Part shown: piece after piece, positions 15,640 through 16,925 of the stretch
Layout: each line of letters begins with the position of its first letter
Numbering within the stretch: position 1 is the first letter of the stretch
Assembly (NCBI RefSeq): GCF_001007875.1
Contig: NZ_CP011412.1
Coordinates: 806,001 to 870,000 of the forward strand
Source of the DNA: Sedimenticola thiotaurini
GTDB lineage: Bacteria > Pseudomonadota > Gammaproteobacteria > Chromatiales > Chromatiaceae
Length of the DNA stretch: 64,000 nucleotides
Direction of reading: 5' to 3'
Notes under the pieces: model-generated
Told to the model about the DNA's origin: nothing
Databases searched by the model: none
Seen by the model: only the letters and a program-made list of their open reading frames with translations
Position numbers and translations under genes: made by a program

Positions 15640-15765
15640 CCCGTGTCAAGCCAAAAAGCATTTATAAATCATTAAGCTATCTATAAGTGCCGGTTGCATG
15701 AAGTATAAGAAAATTTGAATCTGCGGCACATTGCATCAGCCGAAGCAGTGTATTACCGTGCTGCA

Positions 15766-16644
15766 ATGTCAACTAAACACCCCATTATTGTGATCACTGG
15801 CTCGTCGGGATCCGGCTCCTGGCGAGTCAGTGATGTATTCAACCATATCGCCTGGCGTGAAGAGATCAGCCACCTGATTGTGGATGGCAGCGCTTTCCAC
15901 CGCTACGAGCGGGACGAGATGGCGACACAGGTTGAAGCAGCCAGCGCCGAAGGGCGTTATCTGAGCCACTTCAGCCCCGAAGGCAATCGTCTCGATCTGC
16001 TGGAGTCCCTGTTTCAGGAGTTCTCCGCCGGTGGTACCGGTCAATATCGGCACTACCTGCACACCGAGGAGCAGGCGCAGGAGCATGGCCAGCAGGTGGG
16101 CACTTTCACCCCCTGGCAGGCATTGCCGGAAAACCTGGACCTGCTGGTTTACCAGGGGTTACATGGCGCCTTCAGCTCTCCTGAGCTGGATGTGCAGCGG
16201 CATGTGGATCTCTCTCTGGGAGTGGCGCCCATCGTTAATCTGGAGTGGATCAAGAAAATCCATGTAGACATCAGGAATCGGGGCTACACCCTGGATGAAG
16301 TTCGCTCGGTGATCCAGCATCGCCTGCATGACTATGTTCACTACATAACGCCGCAGTTCTCCAGAACAGATATCAATTTCCAGCGTATCCCACTGGTGGA
16401 TACATCCAATCCGTTTGATGCCCGGGACATACCGGAGAATGACGAGAGTATGGTGGTGATCAGTTTCCGGGAACCCCGAAACCATGATTTTGCCTATCTG
16501 CTCAACCGGATTGACGGGGCCTTCATGTCCCGGCGCAATTCTCTGGTGGTGCCTGGTGGTAAAATGGAGTTCGCCATGGAGATATTGTTGAACCCCCTGG
16601 TGCATGAGATGATGGAGCGTCGACGCCAGTTACAGGAGATCTGA
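15766..16644 (+). CDS. PrkB-like phosphoribulokinase homologue with degenerate active site
   Basis: A 292-residue homologue of class I (bacterial) phosphoribulokinase, closest in feel to E. coli PrkB (motifs GTFTPWQALPE, VNLEWIKKIH, YITPQFSRTDINFQRIP, VDTSNPF). The ATG at 15766 gives the typical start; the residue numbers then match Rhodobacter sphaeroides PRK through the first hundred residues. The P-loop reads GSSGSGSW, with Trp19 where Ser/Thr normally ligates magnesium. The motif GDxFHR reads GSAFHR, so the catalytic base Asp42 is Ser. The Walker B acid in LLFYEGLHG is Gln130, and the Arg of the KIHRD motif is Val167. His45 and Arg49, which bind substrate, remain. Normal PRK chemistry is therefore unlikely. 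No Calvin-cycle gene is nearby, and a small ORF follows directly. Confidence 0.88.
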   Translation: MSTKHPIIVITGSSGSGSWRVSDVFNHIAWREEISHLIVDGSAFHRYERDEMATQVEAASAEGRYLSHFSPEGNRLDLLESLFQEFSAGGTGQYRHYLHTEEQAQEHGQQVGTFTPWQALPENLDLLVYQGLHGAFSSPELDVQRHVDLSLGVAPIVNLEWIKKIHVDIRNRGYTLDEVRSVIQHRLHDYVHYITPQFSRTDINFQRIPLVDTSNPFDARDIPENDESMVVISFREPRNHDFAYLLNRIDGAFMSRRNSLVVPGGKMEFAMEILLNPLVHEMMERRRQLQEI

Positions 16645-16688
16645 TCATCACTACCGACAAATCCAAAGATCGCGCCATTCTCGAAGCA

Positions 16689-16925
16689 ATGCGTAAGGTA
16701 TTGACTGCCGTAATCCGGGATACCACGCCACCTCCGGGTATGCGTCATCCGCTCACCGATACGACAATCCAGGACATGCGGGTCTGCCTTGGTATGATCA
16801 CCGCCCGGGAGCGGGAGCTGGGTGATGAGGCGGGTGAGACCGCGCAACGACCCTATTACACTGATGCGCAGCCCACCTCCACCGTCGTACCGTTTGACCT
16901 GAACAAGGACAAGGATCAGAAGTAG
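16689..16925 (+). CDS. Small hypothetical protein downstream of PRK homologue
   Basis: The first ATG gives 78 residues with the core MRKVLTAVIRDTTPPPGMRH, then PLTDTTIQDMRVCLGMITARERE. I recall similar short proteins in purple sulfur bacteria, some annotated loosely as segregation and condensation proteins; I cannot confirm that. The same frame is open and protein-like for 16 more codons upstream (ITTDKSKDRAILEA), back to the PRK stop, where AGGAG precedes CTG (16641) and ATC (16644) but no ATG, GTG or TTG. The true start may therefore be a non-standard codon. The C-terminal tail is polar. It is probably co-transcribed with the PRK homologue. Confidence 0.6.
   Translation: MRKVLTAVIRDTTPPPGMRHPLTDTTIQDMRVCLGMITARERELGDEAGETAQRPYYTDAQPTSTVVPFDLNKDKDQK

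Follow-up and report, generated by a model that had tools for sequence, protein, structure and literature searches.

The gene at positions 15766-16644 on the forward strand of the window (the whole stretch of 64,000 nucleotides of Sedimenticola thiotaurini DNA analyzed here) encodes a phosphoribulokinase (PRK) pseudoenzyme, for which the loss of ribulose-5-phosphate (Ru5P) kinase activity is strongly predicted from the sequence. In the explanation that we consider best, with a probability of roughly 0.5, this pseudo-PRK would make no RuBP, would still bind Ru5P or a related phosphorylated sugar, and would regulate the Calvin cycle without catalysis of its own; we infer these properties from the residues that the protein has lost and kept. 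The protein is a member of a known PRK family, and no earlier description of a pseudo-PRK was found in the open-licence literature.

The reading frame runs uninterrupted from the ATG at 15766 to the TGA at 16642-16644 and encodes 292 residues. In a Pfam profile search, PF00485 covers the protein with its full profile (1-196 of 196; 163 bits), and the match to the NCBIfam model NF011997 'phosphoribulokinase' reaches 418 bits against a cut-off of 362, which places it in the class I PRK profile. This agrees with the earlier note on this DNA, which had described a PRK homologue with a full-length open frame. The nearest solved structure by sequence is that of Rhodobacter sphaeroides PRK (1a7j; phmmer, E 2.6e-87). 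An AlphaFold model of pseudo-PRK (mean pLDDT 89.9, pTM 0.88, from a 13-row alignment) has the PRK fold, with 1a7j as its best structural match (Z 33.7, rmsd 2.1, 275 aligned residues; Foldseek E 6.6e-32) and the runner-up PRK structure far below at Z 22.2. The R. sphaeroides enzyme, CbbP, is a bacterial, octameric PRK of class I (NF011997) that has full-length homology, fold and Ru5P-side residues in common with pseudo-PRK, at 47-48% identity in structural alignments. However, pseudo-PRK is without the base, metal-ligand, Walker B and ATP-arginine positions of CbbP, and its kinase activity is predicted to be absent. A uridine-kinase-like fold within a non-kinase protein is also found in the N-terminal domain of S. 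pombe Tad2 (PDB 7eey; Z 17.6 over 190 residues), known here from the structure title, but this is a eukaryotic tRNA-deaminase domain with 10% identity to pseudo-PRK.

Residues are numbered as in R. sphaeroides PRK (1a7j), and the window numbers are one lower past a one-residue gap. The phmmer alignment with 1a7j is ungapped across the P-loop and the Asp42 segment, with one single-residue gap after window residue 63. Therefore, window Trp19, Ser42, Gln130 and Val167 correspond to Ser19, Asp42, Glu131 and Arg168, and multiple alignments concur. We take Asp42 to be the catalytic base of the R. sphaeroides enzyme, Glu131 its Walker B acid and Ser19 its P-loop metal ligand. Presumably, Arg49 and Arg173 are on the Ru5P side, and Arg31, Arg234 and Arg257 form the allosteric site, with Arg234 as part of the NADH site. 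For plant PRK, PMC9978339 gives an Asp-His dyad in which Asp is the catalytic base. According to PMC5241800, His45 and Lys165 of R. sphaeroides PRK bind Ru5P and Arg168 binds ATP, and in archaeal PRK one sulphate is held by Arg, Tyr and His side chains and the other by the P-loop with Ser31/Thr32.

The losses, all on the forward strand, begin in the P-loop (residues 12-20, GSSGSGSWR; 15799-15825), which carries Ser18 for Thr18, Trp19 for Ser19 at the metal-ligand position and Arg20 for Thr20. Ser42 (15889-15891) replaces Asp42, Gln130 (16153-16155) replaces Glu131, Val167 (16264-16266) replaces Arg168, and Arg234 has become Ser. Retained on the same strand are His45 to Arg49 (15898-15912), Tyr98 and His100 on the side of the Ru5P phosphate (window Tyr97 and His99; 16054-16062), and Lys165, Asp169 and Arg173 (window 164, 168 and 172; 16255-16281), with the lost Arg168 in between; Arg31, Arg187 and Arg257 are also unchanged. 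The alignments thus show an intact sugar-phosphate side in a protein that has lost the side for nucleotide, metal and base. The earlier note had named the same four replacements as catalytic and His45 and Arg49 as retained. Both statements hold: the four positions match those of 1a7j and are not misaligned, and the two retained residues are seen in all ten orthologues. Binding of Ru5P, regulation and partnership with a true PRK, the roles it had suggested, are all compatible with the residues kept.

Orthologues at E < 1e-107 were found in 10 of the 210 genomes of the family, i.e., in eight of the nine genomes of the genus and in G018 and G023. These carriers (clade A) span three genera and include S. 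selenatireducens DSM 17993 and BK-1, S. hydrogenitrophicus SB48 and SN1189, three Sedimenticola MAGs, MAG HKST-UBA179 and Ca. Sedimenticola endophacoides; none of the ten has an interrupted frame. The catalytic base is absent throughout (position 42: S in 8, G in 2), as are the Walker B acid (position 131: Q in 9, K in 1), the ATP-binding arginine (position 168: V in 2, T in 6, N in 2) and the Ser/Thr hydroxyl at position 19, which is W, N, A, Y or H, with Trp in the window strain only. Position 18 is Ser and position 20 basic (Arg or Lys) in 10/10; Glu40, Ser43 and Arg186 are likewise lost in all ten, and Arg234 in nine. Ru5P-side His45, Arg49, Tyr98, His100, Lys165 and Arg173 are retained in every orthologue. 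As the orthologues have the losses in common, an error in a single strain is ruled out, and the same class of changes, for which the earlier note had proposed a search in related genomes, recurs in all ten. Co-loss of pseudo-PRK and the small ORF downstream of it in the ninth genome of the genus (G008) was considered as evidence and rejected because the locus falls in an assembly gap: pepD is truncated where contig C42 stops, and aguB where C81 does. Since both flanking genes run off their contigs, this genome is uninformative on the absence of pseudo-PRK.

Selection was assessed with a simple Nei-Gojobori count in the seven genomes that have all three PRK copies (21 pairs), where dN/dS was taken from pairs with a synonymous difference < 0.6, the other pairs being near synonymous saturation. 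Over the 21 pairs, pseudo-PRK had a median dN of 0.126, compared with 0.044 in the RuBisCO-linked PRK and 0.051 in the remaining copy. The dN/dS of pseudo-PRK was 0.070-0.087 (5 unsaturated pairs), which is higher than that of the RuBisCO-linked PRK (0.018-0.043, 7 pairs) and overlaps with that of the second PRK (0.030-0.088, 8 pairs). The pseudo-PRK gene is under purifying selection. The earlier note had proposed this measure and had held a decaying gene to be unlikely, and ratios far below 1 together with ten intact frames bear this out.

In clade A, the losses appear unevenly spread along the protein. An alignment of 83 canonical PRK rows gives 95 near-invariant positions (conserved in at least 97%); every member of clade A keeps 75 of these, every member has lost 12, and the members differ at the other 8. 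The 12 shared losses fall at residues up to 198 (12/70), with 0/25 from 199 on (Fisher p 0.03), although this p value is only indicative, as the split was picked after the list was seen, close to where PMC5241800 sets the boundary between the domains of the archaeal enzyme. From residue 199 on, 3/25 near-invariant positions are mixed in clade A. The N/C contrast is absent in two further lineages, B and C, which lose C-terminal near-invariant positions (3/25 and 4/25; p 1.0 and 0.74). In R. sphaeroides PRK, the elements that build dimers and octamers belong to the C-terminal domain (PMC5241800).

The genome of the window has two further PRK genes, L001 and L002, both the same as R. sphaeroides PRK at each of 17 positions compared. 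The sole RuBisCO match of the genome is some 5 kb away from L001. L002 (G000:C1:1381467-1382327) is a canonical-residue PRK away from RuBisCO, and is about half identical to the window protein. All clade A genomes (10/10) encode one or more further PRKs in which Asp42, Glu131 and Arg168 are present, so the canonical PRK that the earlier note had proposed to look for in related genomes is present in all of them. PrkB of E. coli (NP_417814.1, 'putative phosphoribulokinase') belongs to the same sequence family as pseudo-PRK, and we know of no role for this PRK homologue. Unlike pseudo-PRK, it is canonical at Thr18, Asp42, Glu131 and Arg168, and it departs from R. sphaeroides PRK at 31, 187, 234 and 257 instead. 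Pseudo-PRK is therefore not simply PrkB; an alignment with both groups had also been suggested by the earlier note. For S. thiotaurini SIP-G1, PMC4472907 describes all of the Calvin cycle, with RuBisCO of form II, and gives a chromosome of 3,928,944 bases and a plasmid of 33,340 bases.

The survey of the family covered 210 genomes (an order-level search gave the same 210), and residues were read in 104 distinct aligned PRK rows, which leave out the other PRKs of G065, G122-G125 and the lineage-C organisms. The N-terminus, and with it position 42, is missing from L049 (G005). Lineage B, found in seven genomes of two genera of the family and on MAG contig L131, keeps Arg168 and Ser19, whereas all eight members have Glu131Arg and a replacement of Asp42, by Asn in L131 and by Ser in the others. 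Lineage C, on MAG contigs L132 and L133, has Glu131Gln, Thr18Ser and Thr20Gln and keeps Asp42, Ser19 and Arg168. The lineage-C genes of L132 (CAMYIN010000154.1) and L133 (CAMYJT010000017.1) lie beside genes that resemble those of branched-chain amino acid ABC transporters. With a lineage-C protein as query, 163 of 369 genomes of a class sample matched at 1e-95; 29 new rows read from among the best loci were all canonical at 18, 19, 42, 131 and 168, one of them with Trp at 20. All 133 plasmid records were < 60% identical. A divergent PRK, L068 (G010:C90:11826-12773), has N for Asp42, R for His45, G for Arg49 and Q for His100 and keeps Glu131 and Arg168; here it is the sugar side that has gone, opposite to the pseudo-PRKs, and the copy looks different in kind from them.

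In trees built with the catalytic columns removed, lineages A, B and C are each strongly supported clades (100/99 or better), and a grouping of A with C is moderately supported (93/78 and 90/85 in two trees). The first tree places all three on one side of a weak branch (61/91). In the second, a canonical-residue row, L176 (G379:C6:51116-51985), joins their side of the branch (89/95) that separates the other 38 rows, and L176 is possibly the nearest active relative of the pseudo-PRKs. For this second tree, an AU test did not reject one clade of A, B and C (p 0.28). A pairing of A with B in place of C was not rejected either (p 0.14). A single origin is thus neither demonstrated nor rejected by these sequences. 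The RuBisCO-linked PRK of the genus falls within a well-supported canonical group (100/96) and the pseudo-PRKs branch elsewhere, which argues that pseudo-PRK is an old paralogue.

The gene order in the genus is pepD, pseudo-PRK, small ORF, aguB and aguA (names by resemblance; contig L127 shows part of it). The small ORF family is found in 176/210 genomes of the family, and in G075 and G076 the small ORF directly adjoins a pepD-like ORF (likeness by eye) with no PRK in between. Pseudo-PRK was therefore probably inserted between pepD and the small ORF, and their adjacency is no evidence of partnership. The gene neighbourhood was rejected as a functional clue, since the small ORF family is widespread without an adjoining PRK and the neighbours of lineages B and C differ; no functional hint is thus taken from the small ORF. 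At the loci examined in the genus and in lineages B and C, no neighbourhood link to CbbP or cbb genes was found. A conserved non-coding block upstream of pseudo-PRK (15705-15765, forward strand; ATAAGAAAA..TTGAAT and TGTATTAC) is common to the 8 aligned loci of the genus and appears promoter-like. TGTATTAC lies about 9 bases 5' of the ATG, no Shine-Dalgarno sequence was seen by eye within the block, and the transcript may be leaderless. The downstream small ORF (16634-16925) has an AGGAG-type ribosome-binding site and is without an ATG, GTG or TTG start. All 8 loci of the genus have ATC (16647-16649 in the window) where the relative L142 has ATG, and AUC may be its start codon.

With the parts needed for the reaction lost, the sugar-binding residues kept and the gene maintained by selection in related genomes, pseudo-PRK is probably sensing or regulating rather than catalyzing. 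We propose that it would bind Ru5P or a comparable sugar phosphate without turnover and, most likely, would enter mixed oligomers with active CbbP, which would alter the response of CbbP to substrate or effectors. Such a subunit is favoured over a free-standing Ru5P sensor or buffer, which we judge less likely, because conservation of the protein is best in its C-terminal domain. Pseudoenzyme subunits are known from the non-catalytic large subunits of plant ADP-glucose pyrophosphorylase and from HisZ, where a dead paralogue beside an active one acts as regulator, the model that we propose for pseudo-PRK. These are different enzymes, however. A regulatory reach of PRK is plausible, though only by analogy with the active enzyme. 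Weighing against the regulator are the missing neighbourhood link to cbb genes, the loss of Arg234 in nine of ten orthologues, and a dN above that of the RuBisCO-linked PRK. We hold it possible, though only tentatively, that lineages A, B and C are pseudo-PRKs that lost catalysis stepwise: the Walker B acid would have gone before the base, and the base before the P-loop metal ligand and the ATP arginine, with Ru5P binding kept throughout. In Sedimenticola, this would have ended in a regulatory subunit specialized in Ru5P sensing, which would assemble together with CbbP and adjust CO2 fixation.

The missing link to cbb genes at the loci examined would also suit a protein without catalysis whose task has nothing to do with either Ru5P or CbbP, such as a scaffold or a moonlighting protein. 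Such a role would not demand the Ru5P-side residues, yet these are retained in 10/10, and we consider it unlikely. The retained residues could instead mean that pseudo-PRK is still an enzyme with altered chemistry or substrate, using kept Lys165, Asp169, His45 and His100 in a metal-independent reaction or with another phosphoryl donor or acceptor. The pocket is mostly retained in all ten orthologues, and the basic residue at position 20 could bind phosphate. However, clade A has neither the base nor the Walker B acid, and neither the metal ligand of the P-loop nor the ATP arginine, and positions 19 and 168 are free to vary within clade A, unlike in a re-tuned catalytic site, which makes such an enzyme improbable.

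Weak or conditional PRK activity is very unlikely in clade A, where all four groups are missing together; R. sphaeroides PRK mutants at such positions are reportedly strongly impaired. Lineage C, which keeps Asp42, Ser19 and Arg168, may still be active; this lends the idea some support and argues for gradual loss. A decaying, non-functional gene might explain why, genome for genome, the RuBisCO-linked PRK has a dN about 2.9 times lower, but the intact frames, dN/dS of 0.07-0.09, the conserved upstream block and the conservation of the dead states themselves largely refute this, and we find it hardly credible.

The PRK gene serves as a marker of autotrophy, and the NCBI model still labels pseudo-PRK phosphoribulokinase. 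As a conserved dead copy passes this model, what is probably no enzyme is entered as PRK by automated annotation. According to PMC5241800, two enzymes are regarded as specific to the Calvin cycle, and PRK is one of them. A culture of S. thiotaurini SIP-G1 exists (DSMZ 28581; PMC4472907), which opens the question to direct tests, and a natural series of partial losses is available in lineages B and C. If pseudo-PRK binds Ru5P and CbbP, it would represent a new way to control CO2 fixation post-translationally in sulfur-oxidizing chemoautotrophs and in a relative of animal symbionts.
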